Shown here: positions 51,864 to 57,712 of the stretch, one piece after another
Layout of the letters: each line of letters starts with the position of its first letter
Numbering within the stretch: position 1 is the first letter of the stretch
NCBI GenBank assembly: GCA_028284195.1
Contig: JANQSE010000002.1
Coordinates: forward strand, 186,001-250,000
Length of the DNA stretch: 64,000 bases
Reading direction: 5' to 3'
Origin: Balneola sp.
GTDB lineage: Bacteria; Bacteroidota; Rhodothermia; Balneolales; Balneolaceae
Program-made: the position numbers and the translations under genes
The notes under the pieces: generated by a model
What the model was told of the DNA's origin: nothing
Seen by the model: only the letters and a program-made list of their open reading frames with translations
The model's database searches: none

Positions 51864-53204
51864 TTAATTTCCGGATTTGATTCTGTTTTCCGGGGTTGGT
51901 GGTAACGGAGGTGGAGGCGGTGGCATTTTTGAACCATCAGTTTTTTTACTCTTCTTAACTATGACCCGATAAGCTGACCTTACTTTATTGTAAGAAGATT
52001 CAAGCTCTTTCTTTGATACATTCTTTGGATTTAAATCCATATAACGCTTTACTGCTATTTGATAGTTCTTTATAGAATTGTCTTTGGGCACCACTTTTTT
52101 AACTCTTGGAGGAGGTGGTGGAGGTAAGGTCATTGCTTTTGGAGGCGGCGGCGGCAAGGTCATTTCTTTTGGAGGAGGTGGAGGCATTAACCCTTTCTGT
52201 TTTTGGAGCTTTCTTATCAAACTGCGAAGCTTTTCAGAATCTGATTTAGTTAGTGATTTGCCATCATCTAGCTTAGTATTCAACTGATCCACCAATTCAC
52301 TAATCGATGCTTCTTTAATGTCCTGAGCACTCGTCTTTTCGCTAAAAGCAAATACAAGAGCTATTAATAGAGGAGCTATCATGAGCTTACGGGGCCAAAC
52401 CCGAAGCTTGTTGTGTTTAGTTGTCATCATTTGTAATCGTTTTTTTGTTAAGGATAAATTAAAACTACTGGTCATCATCGAGCTGCTATCCTGGTTCAGG
52501 TAAGACAGCACTAATTTTTTATAGAGAACGGGATTGCTGCTTTTTAACACTTCTTCGTCAGCAATGAATTCATGATTTAACTGAATGGCTTTTTTGTAGA
52601 AATAAAACACCGGATTAAACCAAAAAACTATTCTCAATATTTCGACAAAAAGAATATCTAATGAATGAAACTGCTTAATGTGTACCAGTTCATGAGCTAT
52701 AACGTTTGCATGAATAGCTCCCTTTTCAAATTTTTTCTTGTTTACAAAAAGTGCAGTGAAAAATGAATGAGGAACGATTTCATCTTCCACTAAAATAAAG
52801 CTCGTTTTATCCTTACTGATAGATCTGTTTCTTTTTATTGCTTTGATAAGCTTCGAAATATTGGACATGAAACGAATAATAAGAAACCCGGTAATACTGA
52901 TATAAGCGAACCACCATAAGAAACTTAAAGAAAGAGGATTTGAACCTGACGCCTCAGCAGAATCACTGAATGAAGAAGCAGTATAATCTGTAACAACAAA
53001 TTCATATACCTGCTCATTTAATTGCTTAACAGGAATAGTAATGGTTTGTTCTAAAGTGATAAAGGGAACCGTTAACCCAAAAACCAAACTAAATAACAAG
53101 AAGTACCGGTTGAACCGGTGCATTTTTTCACGCTCAAGAAATAGCACATAAATCCCAAGCAATATCGCCAGGCAAAGTCCGGATTTGATGAGGTAAAGTA
53201 TCAT
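51864..53204 (-). CDS. BlaR1-like M56 peptidase, copy 3, with proline-rich repeats
   Basis: A 446-residue member of the M56 family, membrane zinc proteases related to the BlaR1/MecR1 sensors. About four membrane helices (ending near residue 290), with a cytoplasmic protease domain between; zinc site HELVHIKQFHSLD (HExxH), and NHEFIADEEVLK for the third ligand. The extracytoplasmic part lacks a beta-lactam-sensing serine-active domain. It carries three 10-residue units of the form PPPPPK-MTL (about 340-375) and a proline-rich C-terminus. It is the last of three paralogs. The ATG is 2 bp after the previous stop. Confidence 0.85.
   Translation of the reverse strand: MILYLIKSGLCLAILLGIYVLFLEREKMHRFNRYFLLFSLVFGLTVPFITLEQTITIPVKQLNEQVYEFVVTDYTASSFSDSAEASGSNPLSLSFLWWFAYISITGFLIIRFMSNISKLIKAIKRNRSISKDKTSFILVEDEIVPHSFFTALFVNKKKFEKGAIHANVIAHELVHIKQFHSLDILFVEILRIVFWFNPVFYFYKKAIQLNHEFIADEEVLKSSNPVLYKKLVLSYLNQDSSSMMTSSFNLSLTKKRLQMMTTKHNKLRVWPRKLMIAPLLIALVFAFSEKTSAQDIKEASISELVDQLNTKLDDGKSLTKSDSEKLRSLIRKLQKQKGLMPPPPPKEMTLPPPPPKAMTLPPPPPPRVKKVVPKDNSIKNYQIAVKRYMDLNPKNVSKKELESSYNKVRSAYRVIVKKSKKTDGSKMPPPPPPLPPTPENRIKSGN
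52110..52190 (-). repeat. 30-bp repeats encoding proline-rich units in M56 copy 3
   Basis: Tandem imperfect units (about three) built of GGNGGN stretches alternating with AAGGTCATTTCTTTT-type spacers encode PPPPP-KEMTL repeats. Copy number is likely to vary between strains. Confidence 0.6.
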
Positions 53205-53206
53205 AA

Positions 53207-54745
53207 CTATTCACTCTCCCTTGTTTTTATAACCTCAATCGACTTTCCATTATCATAGCGTTCCTGCTCAAGGATATTTCCTTGTTCATCGTAAGAAGTC
53301 ATAATGCCGTGATATACAGGTGGATATTTATCACTTTTAGAATTATAGCTATTCTTTAATCGGCCATTCGCATAGTAATTTTTATAAACGGTTAAAGAAT
53401 CGTTGTTGAGAGGAGGATATATAATTTCATTACGTAAATTATTACGATAGAAGTCTTTTGTGTGAATAATCTGACCACTTTCATCATAGTCAAATTCTAC
53501 TCGTCCTAACTCTTTTCCTAAGCTATCATAGTAGGTAATTTTAAGAGCCCTGCCATCTTGCAGCACTCTTTCTGATAGCAAATAACCGTCATAGCTTGTC
53601 ATCGATACAGTGCCTGTCATCAATTCTCCCCTGCTGTTGTAATGCCTGAGGGCATTTATTTTTCTGGCACTTTTGGAATTTCTTAACCGATCAAGCTCAT
53701 TTGTTTTGAAATACAATGGCTCACTGAACTCAGCTCCTCCAAAAAAAGTTTGGTACTCTTCCCCGTTTATGTGAACCAGTTTAGGTTCAGTTAAATCTGT
53801 ACAAAACATTAAGCCCCAAGCCATCAAAAAAGTTAACACTGCCGCCTTTTTTGATGATGATTTTAGAAATGAATGCCTTTTCATCATCACTTTGAATCTT
53901 TTTTTGGTTAAAGAGTAATTGAAACTACTGCTAAGGCCTGTTTTATAGGATGGAAATACTGTTTCAAGCAGCAGTTTCTGATATGAAATCGAATCTTTTG
54001 TTTTGGTAATTACCGATTCATCAGCTAAAAATTCATGATTAACCTGAATGGCTTTTTTATAGAAATAGAATACAGGATTGAACCAAAAAACTATTCTGAT
54101 AACTTCTATAAATAATACATCCAGTGAGTGCCTCTGCTGAACATGAGTAAGCTCATGTTCCAGTATTTGATTAGAAATTTCTTTTGAACGATACTGATGC
54201 TTATTCACATAAATTGAGTTCAGAAATGTATATGGAGCTGCATCTTCTGAGAGTAAAACCACTTTTGCAGATTTATATAGTTCAAAGGGGTTGTTTTTTC
54301 TTTTTTGGTAAAAACTAAAAATTCCTATCCCCATTCTTCCAAAAAGAATTAATGTGACTAATGAATAAGCAGCAATTAAGAATTCTTTCAGGCTTGGGAA
54401 AAAGTTGGGTTCTTTTGCCTGAATGGAAGTCATCTCAAATGTTGGCTTTACATACAGACTTGATTCCTCTTCTTGATCGGCTTTCTTCGTAGTTTCTGTT
54501 ACCACATCCTCTATAAAGGTTGAGGCTCTGGCGGTCACACTATTAATAACATAAGCAGGTGTATCTGTAATTAATTTTTTTGTACTTGTTTGGAAACTCA
54601 GTAAAGGAATAGTCAATCCCGATACTAATGCAATTAACAAGAAGTACCGGTTGAACCGATGCATTTTTTCCCGTTCTAAAAACAGCAGATAAAACCCAAG
54701 TAATATCGCTAAGTAAAGCCCGGATTTGATCAAGTACAGAATCAT
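53207..54745 (-). CDS. BlaR1-like M56 peptidase, copy 2, with YwqK/MORN-like C-terminus
   Basis: A 512-residue M56 protein: helices at about 5-20, 35-55 and 125-145, zinc site HELTHVQQRHSLD (near 193) and NHEFLADESV, and a fourth helix near 292-310. The extracytoplasmic C-terminus (about 320-512) is built of repeats of the YwqK/MORN-variant type (YNSRGELMTGTV, YYDSLGKELGRVEF, YYANGRLKNSY, YDEQGNILEQERY). It is not a penicillin-binding domain. Its ATG overlaps the stop of copy 1 by 4 bp (ATGA). Confidence 0.83.
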   Translation of the reverse strand: MILYLIKSGLYLAILLGFYLLFLEREKMHRFNRYFLLIALVSGLTIPLLSFQTSTKKLITDTPAYVINSVTARASTFIEDVVTETTKKADQEEESSLYVKPTFEMTSIQAKEPNFFPSLKEFLIAAYSLVTLILFGRMGIGIFSFYQKRKNNPFELYKSAKVVLLSEDAAPYTFLNSIYVNKHQYRSKEISNQILEHELTHVQQRHSLDVLFIEVIRIVFWFNPVFYFYKKAIQVNHEFLADESVITKTKDSISYQKLLLETVFPSYKTGLSSSFNYSLTKKRFKVMMKRHSFLKSSSKKAAVLTFLMAWGLMFCTDLTEPKLVHINGEEYQTFFGGAEFSEPLYFKTNELDRLRNSKSARKINALRHYNSRGELMTGTVSMTSYDGYLLSERVLQDGRALKITYYDSLGKELGRVEFDYDESGQIIHTKDFYRNNLRNEIIYPPLNNDSLTVYKNYYANGRLKNSYNSKSDKYPPVYHGIMTSYDEQGNILEQERYDNGKSIEVIKTRESE

Positions 54746-56502
54746 AGCTTTTTCTTCAGTAGTTCAGTTGGCAAAGAAGGGAGCGGGGGTAACTCTCCGC
54801 TAATCCCGTATTTTTTCCTGAATGCAAACCATGTTGATCTTTCTCTTTTAAGTTCCTCAAAAGCCAAAGCTATTTGGTTTATATCTCCCTTCGGAAGTAC
54901 TCGCTGATATTCTAAGAGCGTATTTTTATATCTATTCTTGGCGTTTCTAACTCCAACATCTTTGGCTTTTTGGGTAAGAGGTATTTCTTTGTTACCCTCA
55001 AAGAGTTTCTGACTTTCAATATTTCCTAAGCTATTAAATTCTGTTATCAGGTTTAGGCTGTCATTCGGATTATCTTTGATAGCAATACTAGTTAGATCAA
55101 TTACACCCCAGGTTTCTTTTTCTTCATTAAAAGATTGAATACGAATAATATTAAAATTGTTATTCTTGTAAGCTATTGTAGTAATTCCCCACAGTTCATT
55201 TTCTGATGAGAACATAGTTGTGGATACTGTATCGCCTTGATATGTTTCCCTCACAATAGAGAGCCTTCCCTCAAGACCCTCAAGATTATAATAACGCGTT
55301 TTAGACAACAACTTACCATTCTCAATCTCTGATCTGGTGTCTATTTTTTCATCATCATCTTTATCGTATATAATCCACTCTCCCGTAAACGGATTTCCTT
55401 CTTCATCATAATATTTCCATTTATGATCGTATAAAGACTTATTCATCTCCTCATTTTTACTGAGGATTATTGAGTTGGAATTAAACCATGCCGAATTATA
55501 GGGCTCAGTAAATTTCACTCCATTTATTTCATATGTTAGCCTGTCCTGCGAAATTTTGGTACCGAAAACCAGAGCCAGAGATGCTATTATTGGTATCAAC
55601 ACAACTTTTCTTGAAAGCATGCTCTGCGTAGTGCTTTTCTTCACCATCATTATGAATCGCTTTTTGGTAAGTGCATAATTAAAACTGCTGGACAGGTTCG
55701 TTTTATAGCTTGGTAGTACACTTTCTATCAGCAACTTTTTATAAGAAACCGGGTCATTCGTTTTATCCAGCACCGATTGATCTGCTAAAAACTCATGATT
55801 AATCTGGATTGCTCTTTTATAGAAATAGAAAATGGGATTGAACCAAAAGATGATCCTAAGCAATTCCACAAAAAATACATCCAATGAATGCTTCTGTGTT
55901 GCATGTGTTAGTTCATGCTCAAAAATCTGATCGGCAATTTCCCCGGAGTGGTATTGGTCTTTATTTACAAAAATTGTATCCAAAAATGTATGCGGGGCTA
56001 TTGGTTCACCAATTAATACTAAACGTGCCGATTTATATGACAAGCTTCTATTCTTTTTTTCTTTTTCATAAAAACTATACAGTGCAAATCCCATTCGAAC
56101 AAAAAGGAATGAGCAAATCAATGTATATGCGATCAGGGAAAATCCTTTTAGAAAGTGAAAGGAGAAATTACGTGTATAAGCTATTTCACTGCTATTTAAT
56201 TCTCTTATTTGAGTAGAATTTGGTTTCAGCACCTTATTTCTATTTGAGGGATATTCTGCTACACTTTGTAGCCACTCTGTAGATGTTAACGCAACACTGC
56301 TCACTATTTCTGTAGGTGTTTCTGTAATCAGTTTATTCCTAACTACATCTACGGGAAACATTGGAACGGTTAATCCCACAACTAAAGCCGCTAACAAGAA
56401 TATTCTGTTAAACCGGTGCATCTTATGCCGCTCTAGTAGTACCAGATAAATAACTAACAGAATGGCTAAACAAAGTCCGGATTTGATCAAATAGGCAATC
56501 AT
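54742..56502 (-). CDS. BlaR1-like M56 peptidase, copy 1, with MORN-like C-terminus
   Basis: A 586-residue M56 protein with the same plan: N-terminal helices, zinc site HELTHATQKHSLD (near 205) and NHEFLADQSVLD, then a helix near 304-320. The extracytoplasmic part (about 330-586) has MORN-like units such as YYDEEGNPFTGEWIIYD and a helical tail. The three copies share the start MI-YLIKSGL-LAILL and the FNYALTKKRF segment, indicating duplication. It follows BlaI with an ATGA overlap. In the BlaR1 model these proteases degrade the repressor when a ligand is sensed. Ligands here are unknown. Confidence 0.85.
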   Translation of the reverse strand: MIAYLIKSGLCLAILLVIYLVLLERHKMHRFNRIFLLAALVVGLTVPMFPVDVVRNKLITETPTEIVSSVALTSTEWLQSVAEYPSNRNKVLKPNSTQIRELNSSEIAYTRNFSFHFLKGFSLIAYTLICSFLFVRMGFALYSFYEKEKKNRSLSYKSARLVLIGEPIAPHTFLDTIFVNKDQYHSGEIADQIFEHELTHATQKHSLDVFFVELLRIIFWFNPIFYFYKRAIQINHEFLADQSVLDKTNDPVSYKKLLIESVLPSYKTNLSSSFNYALTKKRFIMMVKKSTTQSMLSRKVVLIPIIASLALVFGTKISQDRLTYEINGVKFTEPYNSAWFNSNSIILSKNEEMNKSLYDHKWKYYDEEGNPFTGEWIIYDKDDDEKIDTRSEIENGKLLSKTRYYNLEGLEGRLSIVRETYQGDTVSTTMFSSENELWGITTIAYKNNNFNIIRIQSFNEEKETWGVIDLTSIAIKDNPNDSLNLITEFNSLGNIESQKLFEGNKEIPLTQKAKDVGVRNAKNRYKNTLLEYQRVLPKGDINQIALAFEELKRERSTWFAFRKKYGISGELPPLPSLPTELLKKKL

Positions 56503-56870
56503 GACTTCTTCTTTTTAATTTCCTGGTCGATAAGAGATTTTAATTCCTCCAGTTCTTTTTCAGACAGGTTGGTTTCAGATGTAAAAAAGGAGGCAAACTG
56601 GGATGCGGAGTTATTAAAGAACTTTTTAATCAAACCGTTTACGTGTTTCGAGAAGTAATCTGACTTCTTAACCAAAGCATAATACTCTCTGGAGCGACCG
56701 TATTGTTTATAATCTACAAATCCTTTTTCCTGCATTCGCTTTAGCAGGGTGGCTATAGTTGTGGGTGCCGGTTTGGGCTCGGAATACTCATCCAGCAAAT
56801 CTTTCATAAAAGCTTTTTTAAGCTTCCATAAATGCTGCATAAGGTCTTCTTCTGTTTGTGATAATGGCAT
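56499..56870 (-). CDS. BlaI/MecI-family transcriptional repressor
   Basis: A 123-residue winged-helix repressor: LSQTEEDLMQHLWKLKKA (first helices), PAPTTIATLLKRMQEKGFVDYK (recognition helix and wing) and a C-terminal dimerisation helix region ending EELKSLIDQEIKKK. The family normally represses its own operon and is cleaved by the partnered BlaR1-like protease. It heads a four-gene operon with three M56 genes, each junction overlapping or nearly so. Two palindromes at 56871-56907 lie directly upstream of its ATG, consistent with self-repression. Confidence 0.92.
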   Translation of the reverse strand: MPLSQTEEDLMQHLWKLKKAFMKDLLDEYSEPKPAPTTIATLLKRMQEKGFVDYKQYGRSREYYALVKKSDYFSKHVNGLIKKFFNNSASQFASFFTSETNLSEKELEELKSLIDQEIKKKKS

Positions 56871-56907
56871 ACTCTACAAGTTTAGAGTTATTTCTACAAA
56901 TGTAGAG
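56871..56907. promoter_or_regulatory. Two BlaI-type operator palindromes
   Basis: Site 1 (56871-56888, ACTCTACAAGTTTAGAGT) and site 2 (56893-56906, TCTACAAATGTAGA) share the core CTACAA-T-TAGAG and resemble the TACA-n-TGTA dyads bound by BlaI/MecI. Their centres are 20 bp apart (about two helical turns), so two dimers could sit on the same face. Site 1 touches the BlaI start codon. Confidence 0.72.
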
Positions 56908-56944
56908 CAAAAAATCACAAAATCAAACTCTGTTAAAAAAAATA

Positions 56945-57712
56945 CTAAATATGGGCTTTGGCATCTTCAGCTAAGGCAAGTACTGCCTTTTGGTACATCG
57001 AGCTTGGATTGTACCTGAGAATGGCTTTTTCAACGCTACCGGTTACTTTTTTGTAGTGTGCCAGAAAGTTCGCTACCGAATGGATATTGCTATTCATGTC
57101 ATACAGATCATTCCCTACAAACCACCGATTCAATGACCACGGAACAAATTGTGCATACGACATGGCTCCCGCATAACTGGACTTTAAAGCTAATACATCT
57201 TTATCGTGCTTTTCTGTCCATTTTAAAAGTTCTTCAAGTTGCGCCAAAGCGAATTTACTTCTGTAATCAGCAGCGATCATTGATACATAAGCATTAAAAG
57301 GATTGTATTTCCCTTTATGGAGTCCAAAGCCAGACTCAACTCCCAAAATCCCTATGATTACCTCTTTCGGGATGCCATATTCTTTTTCAGCTTTTTTGAG
57401 AGCTGTTTTGTGGGATTCTACAAATTCGGGGATATCATTCTTTTTCTTTTCGTAATTAAGAACCCGCTGATAATCTTCAAATCCTTCGATTTTAATTTCA
57501 ACGGCGCGTGTAAACTTTTTCTTTATCCCGTCAATCAGTTTAAACCGTTCGTCTTCAAAATAAGGTTTGATATCAATTCCTTTTTTCTCGAAATGGGTGA
57601 TCAGCTTGGTTTTATATTCTTCATCGGGATTCGAAAAAGAAAAAACAGCACTACTGAATGCAGTTATGAATAGAACAGAGAGAATCAGGTTTTTTAAGCT
57701 AAAATGTGTCAT
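56945..57712 (-). CDS. MltB-like lytic murein transglycosylase
   Basis: A 255-residue exported protein that should cleave glycan strands of peptidoglycan to anhydro-muropeptides. N-terminal signal peptide (about 8-25, LILSVLFITAFSSAVFS), then the SLT-like domain: catalytic glutamate in ILGVESGFG (near 147) and SYAGAMSYAQFVPWS (near 200), the counterpart of the GAMGxxQFMPS motif, plus YNPSSMY. It is shorter than E. coli MltB, lacking its C-terminal region. Located just upstream of the BlaI operon on the same strand; the operator sits between them, so the two are probably separate units. Confidence 0.85.
   Translation of the reverse strand: MTHFSLKNLILSVLFITAFSSAVFSFSNPDEEYKTKLITHFEKKGIDIKPYFEDERFKLIDGIKKKFTRAVEIKIEGFEDYQRVLNYEKKKNDIPEFVESHKTALKKAEKEYGIPKEVIIGILGVESGFGLHKGKYNPFNAYVSMIAADYRSKFALAQLEELLKWTEKHDKDVLALKSSYAGAMSYAQFVPWSLNRWFVGNDLYDMNSNIHSVANFLAHYKKVTGSVEKAILRYNPSSMYQKAVLALAEDAKAHI

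Follow-up and report, generated by a model that had tools for sequence, protein, structure and literature searches.

The 64,000-nt stretch of Balneola sp. DNA analysed here (assembly GCA_028284195.1, contig JANQSE010000002.1, positions 186,001 to 250,000; hereafter the window) contains an operon in which one gene for a BlaI-type repressor is followed by three genes for M56 membrane metalloproteases, M56-A, M56-B and M56-C. We consider this operon to be probably a self-contained, autoregulated envelope sensor unit of the BlaR1/BlaI type, in which the penicillin-sensing domain is replaced by several interchangeable tails. This reading draws on gene architecture, conserved residues, the operator, phylogeny and separate tail genes, all taken from sequence. 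An operon of this kind is beyond a chance occurrence, because blaI-M56 is kept in 15 of the 58 genomes of our main survey (window genome: G000), and 14 of these 15 also have the operator in exact form. Six further loci were added through matches to a profile of the sensor tails in a phylum sample (G193, G220, G262, G289, G293 and G301); these six are a biased addition, and the total is 21 loci.

The four genes lie head to tail on the minus strand (56870-51864). As the initial annotation had claimed, a single BlaI gene precedes three M56 genes in tandem with intact HExxH motifs, and the junctions overlap or nearly so: 4-nt ATGA overlaps were found at blaI/M56-A and M56-A/M56-B, and a gap of 2 nt between M56-B and M56-C. 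All three proteases exceed the curated PF05569 cut-off of 31 bits (Table 1). The window genome (2.68 Mb, 98.5% complete) contains exactly these three PF05569 matches and a single PF03965 match, the operon's blaI (both at E ≤ 0.001). Matches of M56-B to the Pfam families eCIS_core and beta-propeller overlap the protease and were dismissed as chance or zincin similarity.

Apart from Asp210, the residues on which BlaR1 depends have counterparts in all three proteases. The second zinc-ligand motif, ExxxD, takes the form NHEF(L/I)AD, and both HExxH and ExxxD were invariant in the 20 Balneolaceae M56 proteins of the 15 loci. Residues 1-278 of the AlphaFold2 model of M56-B (predicted local distance difference test, pLDDT, 74.2) align to residues 1-294 of BlaR1 in its cryo-electron microscopy (cryo-EM) structures with Z 13.5-15.6, and the core of the M56-C model (pLDDT 78.6) aligns to them with Z 13.8-15.8. 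By these models, the BlaR1 core fold is present in M56-B and M56-C. A profile alignment places LSSSFN...KKR of the family over LSHSFN...KRR of BlaR1, with SSFN and KKR in M56-A, M56-B and M56-C. Equivalents were found for BlaR1 His201/Glu202/His205/Glu242, Asp246, Tyr261, Ser283-Phe284 and Arg294. Ser283-Phe284 is described as the bond of spontaneous autocleavage in BlaR1, after which the cut loop remains in the active site and inhibits the protease, while Arg294 comes from the partner chain via a domain swap (PMC9834060). On the side of the repressor, FASFF is present in all 22 BlaI proteins of the 21 loci, so the P1' Phe is kept. Three receptors acting on one repressor are mechanistically credible because BlaI retains this residue.

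The tails behind the shared core are less diverse than first thought. Three different extracytoplasmic parts had been proposed; the tail of M56-C does differ from those of M56-A and M56-B, but those two are homologous with each other and of MORN type (tail profile E 5.8e-23 and 1.9e-44, respectively). The profile match of M56-C is limited to the first 55 positions, and its tail is helical and proline-rich. Judged by these matches, the three tails are of two kinds. Tails vary on a kept core among relatives as well: among the 20 M56 proteins of the 15 loci, MORN_2 was matched in nine and ExbD/TolR in six. In Balneola sp. EhC07 (G007; L083:4342-7431), the single M56 protein has 1029 aa and a very long tail beyond the MORN part. 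In most tails of MORN type (L085, L086, L090 and others), the last transmembrane (TM) helix carries a Cys at its outer end (FC[TS]); the motif is lipobox-like, yet a Phe precedes the Cys.

The intergenic gap between mltB and blaI (74 nt) contains two palindromes, 20 bp apart. On the coding strand the upstream one reads TCTACATTTGTAGA and includes TACATTTG, with TTTG 19 nt upstream, a spacing that we take to match the Bacteroidetes -33/-7 promoter. The strict promoter pattern was found in 15 of 22 blaI promoters at the 21 loci. The operon looks closed and autoregulated, because the predicted -7 box falls inside a palindrome that occurs only once, exactly, in the genome. TACANNTGTA has been given as the operator of the related CopR-CopY repressors (PMC7253601), and by its PF03965 match and the putative operators of TACANNTGTA type at 56873-56906 the blaI gene is assigned to the BlaI/MecI/CopY repressors.

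Besides operator 2, six other sites with one mismatch to TCTACANNTGTAGA were found in the window genome, all within open reading frames (ORFs). Sites with two mismatches numbered 123, vs 110 for the control, and a second perfect 12-mer sits within a transporter gene. The 58 genomes contain 23 exact sites (in 19 genomes) vs 12 control sites; 14 of the 23 lie directly ahead of blaI, and the remaining nine do not exceed the control. Six of these nine were inspected, of which five were inside ORFs and one was intergenic. A wider regulon defined by the operator was not found, with two-mismatch counts near the control and the other one-mismatch sites inside ORFs. In G026 one exact operator coincides with the beginning of a lipoprotein-like ORF (L091:10802-11983), 1.5 kb upstream of blaI, and is a possible additional target.

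The three copies probably differ in origin. Core identity is 51% between M56-A and M56-B, 40% between M56-A and M56-C and 35% between M56-B and M56-C, with 73-85% over the first 50 residues; a recent identical duplication was rejected on these values. In the M56 tree (four long-branch rows of 48 excluded), M56-A and M56-B were sisters (97/92) inside a Balneola group (99/100) and M56-C was separate. A single clade of all three was disfavoured, at a borderline value (approximately unbiased test, p-AU 0.047). M56 proteins with ExbD tails fell within one clade (98/97 with five rows, 100/96 with four). Local duplication and separate origins, which the initial annotation had set against each other, thus both apply: as the tree indicates, the cluster is a young, lineage-specific M56-A/M56-B duplication joined to the older paralogue M56-C.

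More than one M56 gene was found at four of the 15 loci, with three in G000 and two each in G002, G010 and G018. Among the genomes sampled, three under one BlaI occur only in the window genome; none of the six added loci has three, and the 148 genomes of a phylum sample, 42 of which have a related M56, yielded no other locus with one BlaI and three M56. The copies are diverged and the relatives carry one to two M56 genes, so the arrangement is not one of recent identical copies set among single-M56 relatives. Two M56 genes under one BlaI were also seen in G175; the apparent M56 pairs of G059, G078 and G081 each have their own BlaI. Stand-alone tail genes follow blaI-M56 at six of the 15 loci (G010 two, G012 seven, G017 three, G018 one, G020 four and G028 one), and extra M56 genes and/or stand-alone tails were present at eight of the 15. 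The locus of G016 is truncated by a contig end. The tail profile (E ≤ 1e-12) matched 23 of 296 genomes, 18 of which were Balneolaceae; the five other matches covered the docking segment of M56-type frames only (one of the five frames was read).

The stand-alone tail genes begin a few codons ahead of the autocleavage point and comprise the autocleavage segment, the last TM helix and the sensor, without the protease. The Arg294 equivalent is an invariant column in them, and MORN_2 was matched in 15 of 17 (E ≤ 0.1). Up to seven diverged tails stand in an array behind one blaI-M56 (L086), with identities of 23-69% to the first row of the alignment. The P1 residue was Lys, His, Asp or Glu in 25 of 26 scorable tails (27 counted) and in none of 25 scorable full-length M56 proteins (0/28 including three more with Ser); the Fisher value for this contrast, 1e-13, is overstated because the rows are related. 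The M56 genes of G017 (263 aa, followed by three tails) and G220 (271 aa, followed by five tails) terminate at, or about two residues from, the autocleavage point. In G220 the genes at the junction overlap out of frame (GTGA), so the split there is no simple sequencing slip; the G017 stop shares its frame with the start that follows, but additional codons separate the two. The M56 ORFs of G246 and G059 (224 and 205 aa) were not counted as splits outside Balneolaceae, as their breaks fall in or close to the catalytic part and not at the autocleavage point, nor were the orphan ORFs resembling tails in G031, G254 and G277, which begin past the docking motif.

Self-cleavage of BlaR1 yields two fragments, both of which are visible together in the cryo-EM structure. 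Genomes of the G017/G220 type appear to encode these two fragments as separate genes and to multiply the outer one, and the window genome gets several sensors through full-length copies instead. Natural separate genes for both fragments would make it testable whether self-cleavage is required or merely a free loop end, and also whether a domain-swapped half can act in trans.

From these features we infer an envelope signal, cleavage of BlaI, OR logic and pairing in trans, as follows. BlaI would occupy the -7 box and the second site by the start codon and repress its own operon. Each M56 protein would be a BlaR1-like receptor with its N and C termini outside and its zinc protease toward the cytoplasm; it would cut itself at the Ser-Phe bond, and the cut loop would keep the protease inactive. 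When the outer tail (MORN-like in M56-A and M56-B, helical/proline-rich in M56-C) senses an altered envelope or peptidoglycan, the loop would be released, and the freed protease would cut BlaI before Phe96, which would de-repress the operon. With three receptors on one repressor, any single one could open the switch. The envelope is proposed as the source of the signal because of the ExbD/TolR and MORN tail types and the MltB-like gene that nine of the 21 loci carry close to the operon and on its strand. Stand-alone tails of relatives are likely to associate in trans with the M56 protease, like the swapped helix-9/last-TM/sensor part of BlaR1. A more specific version, which we put forward tentatively, is a combinatorial receptor: one BlaR1-like core would serve several interchangeable sensor subunits, each docking in trans via the domain-swapped helix, the gene having been broken at the self-cleavage point and the freed sensor half multiplied. 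The three full-length receptors of the window would then be the unsplit version of this multi-input design and might form mixed dimers with exchange of tails.

Several points weigh against the envelope sensor unit. BlaR1 Asp210, described as near-strictly conserved (PMC9834060), is replaced by an invariant His across the family (His206 in M56-B), and for this reason the window proteins are, by their residues, receptors working like BlaR1 but not BlaR1 proper. Eleven of the 15 loci have one M56 only, and a single M56 could handle all the work on BlaI. The multi-input sensor proposed in the initial annotation is partly supported: there is one repressor in a tight operon, the three predicted receptors have no penicillin-binding domain and more than one kind of extracytoplasmic tail, and apart from this His they have the BlaR1-type residues. 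It is rather unlikely that just one M56 (M56-C or a member of the M56-A/M56-B pair) acts on BlaI while the others act on other substrates or drift after duplication under one promoter. The sister relationship of M56-A and M56-B makes the cluster partly a lineage-specific duplication, which fits this alternative, as does the single M56 at most related loci; but none of the three proteins has lost any of the catalytic and self-cleavage residues tested, apart from the family-wide Asp210-to-His change, M56-C is an old lineage preserved intact, and multiplicity arises by several routes among relatives. The operator search in the window genome and the 58 genomes gave no clear target outside the operon, so the downstream response is missing and the products may themselves be the output. 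BlaI would then control nothing else, and de-repression would flood the membrane with proteases and with envelope-binding tails, for repair or policing of the envelope. This is possible, somewhat short of an even chance, and compatible with the envelope sensor unit. It is favoured by the sole perfect TCTACANNTGTAGA, which is the operon's own, by the near-control two-mismatch counts and by the exact sites of relatives, which exceed the control only at blaI. However, weaker targets or those with a single half-site would escape the operator search, and a receptor architecture with self-inhibition by a cleavage loop looks regulatory.

A beta-lactam switch like bla/mec is highly improbable, in agreement with the initial annotation. 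The BlaI/M56 pairing and the conserved cleavage residues would suit one, but no transpeptidase or penicillin-binding domain was found in the three M56 proteins among Pfam families up to E 0.01, their tails are of other kinds (MORN-like or helical/proline-rich) and the operon is without a further gene. NCBIfam blaR1_generic scored 26-30 bits on them, vs a cut-off of 400. Indirect induction by beta-lactams via peptidoglycan damage is possible. The MORN/YwqK-like tails might also serve in an arms race, as immunity proteins or decoys anchored in the membrane, with M56/BlaI only setting their dose. We regard this as improbable: the array of up to seven diverged tails speaks for it, but the tails retain a protease-docking segment (the invariant Arg and the KKR helix) for which an immunity protein would have no use, ExbD/TolR and proline-rich tails fill the same role, and no toxin gene was seen nearby, though no systematic toxin search was made.

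The window operon shares with BlaR1/BlaI and MecR1/MecI of S. aureus the repressor family, the gluzincin M56 core, the outside-outside topology, the palindromic operator, the Ser-Phe autocleavage bond, the swapped Arg294 helix and the P1' Phe of the repressor. Unlike BlaR1/BlaI, it has no penicillin-binding sensor, no beta-lactamase or PBP2a target, three receptors per repressor and His for Asp210, and the tails of its family are MORN-like, ExbD/TolR-like or helical/proline-rich. Single BlaI-M56 pairs of other Bacteroidota (Tenacibaculum, Chryseobacterium and others; L103-L131) are direct homologues with blaI and M56 overlapping or adjacent, and most Tenacibaculum loci have the same operator. 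Such loci nearly always have one M56 per BlaI; Chryseobacterium edaphi and G175 have two. M. tuberculosis BlaR/BlaI likewise has an M56 protease without a penicillin sensor domain (PMC9834060). M. tuberculosis BlaR is described there only as sensor-less, whereas the window receptors have tail modules, which in relatives are encoded separately. No description of multi-M56 or split BlaR1 operons was found in the open-licence literature, covered mostly at the level of titles and abstract beginnings. Apparently, the BlaR1/BlaI mechanism also runs outside antibiotic resistance, with several inputs and varied sensor modules.

Table 1. Positions of the operon's genes, regulatory sites and predicted cleavage bonds in the window.
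Feature	Position	Strand	Description
blaI	56499..56870	-	BlaI/MecI-family repressor, 123 aa; PF03965 100.9 bits; MecI 1okr alignment E 8.1e-14
M56-A	54742..56502	-	BlaR1-like membrane metalloprotease, 586 aa; PF05569 52.8 bits; MORN-type tail and helical/proline-rich end
M56-B	53207..54745	-	BlaR1-like membrane metalloprotease, 512 aa; PF05569 51.6 bits; MORN-type tail
M56-C	51864..53204	-	BlaR1-like membrane metalloprotease, 446 aa; PF05569 48.7 bits; helical/proline-rich tail
HExxH of M56-A	55903..55917	-	A196-200, HELTH
HExxH of M56-B	54143..54157	-	B197-201, HELTH
HExxH of M56-C	52680..52694	-	C171-175, HELVH
Predicted autocleavage bond Ser273-Phe274, M56-A	55681..55686	-	aligned to BlaR1 Ser283-Phe284
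Predicted autocleavage bond Ser274-Phe275, M56-B	53921..53926	-	aligned to BlaR1 Ser283-Phe284
Predicted autocleavage bond Ser247-Phe248, M56-C	52461..52466	-	aligned to BlaR1 Ser283-Phe284
Predicted cleavage bond Phe95-Phe96, BlaI	56583..56588	-	aligns with S. aureus BlaI Asn101-Phe102 (MecI/BlaI alignment)
Predicted promoter TTTG-N19-TACATTTG	56897..56927	-	Bacteroidetes -33/-7 type
Operator 1, TCTACANNTGTAGA	56893..56906		covers predicted -7 box; sole perfect match in window genome; conserved ahead of blaI in relatives
Operator 2	56873..56886		one mismatch; 20 bp downstream of operator 1, immediately before blaI start codon
MltB-like lytic transglycosylase	56945..57712	-	PF13406 112.9 bits; upstream of blaI; system membership uncertain

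The MltB-like gene upstream of blaI, already noted in the initial annotation, recurs at the nine loci mentioned above upstream of the operon, downstream of it or between tails. Neighbourhood conservation by itself could account for this linkage, because a gene for a metzincin-like lipoprotein also recurs there. This small lipoprotein, with an HExxHxxGL motif, was found downstream of the operon in relatives (L081-L084, L088 and L186; the L088 and L186 copies were judged on their first 60 residues only), and none was seen downstream of the operon in the window. All seven other sampled members of the genus (G001-G007) have a second, strongly Pfam-like BlaI-M56 pair that is absent from the window genome. 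Two convergent BlaI-M56 pairs lie side by side in G301 (L191).

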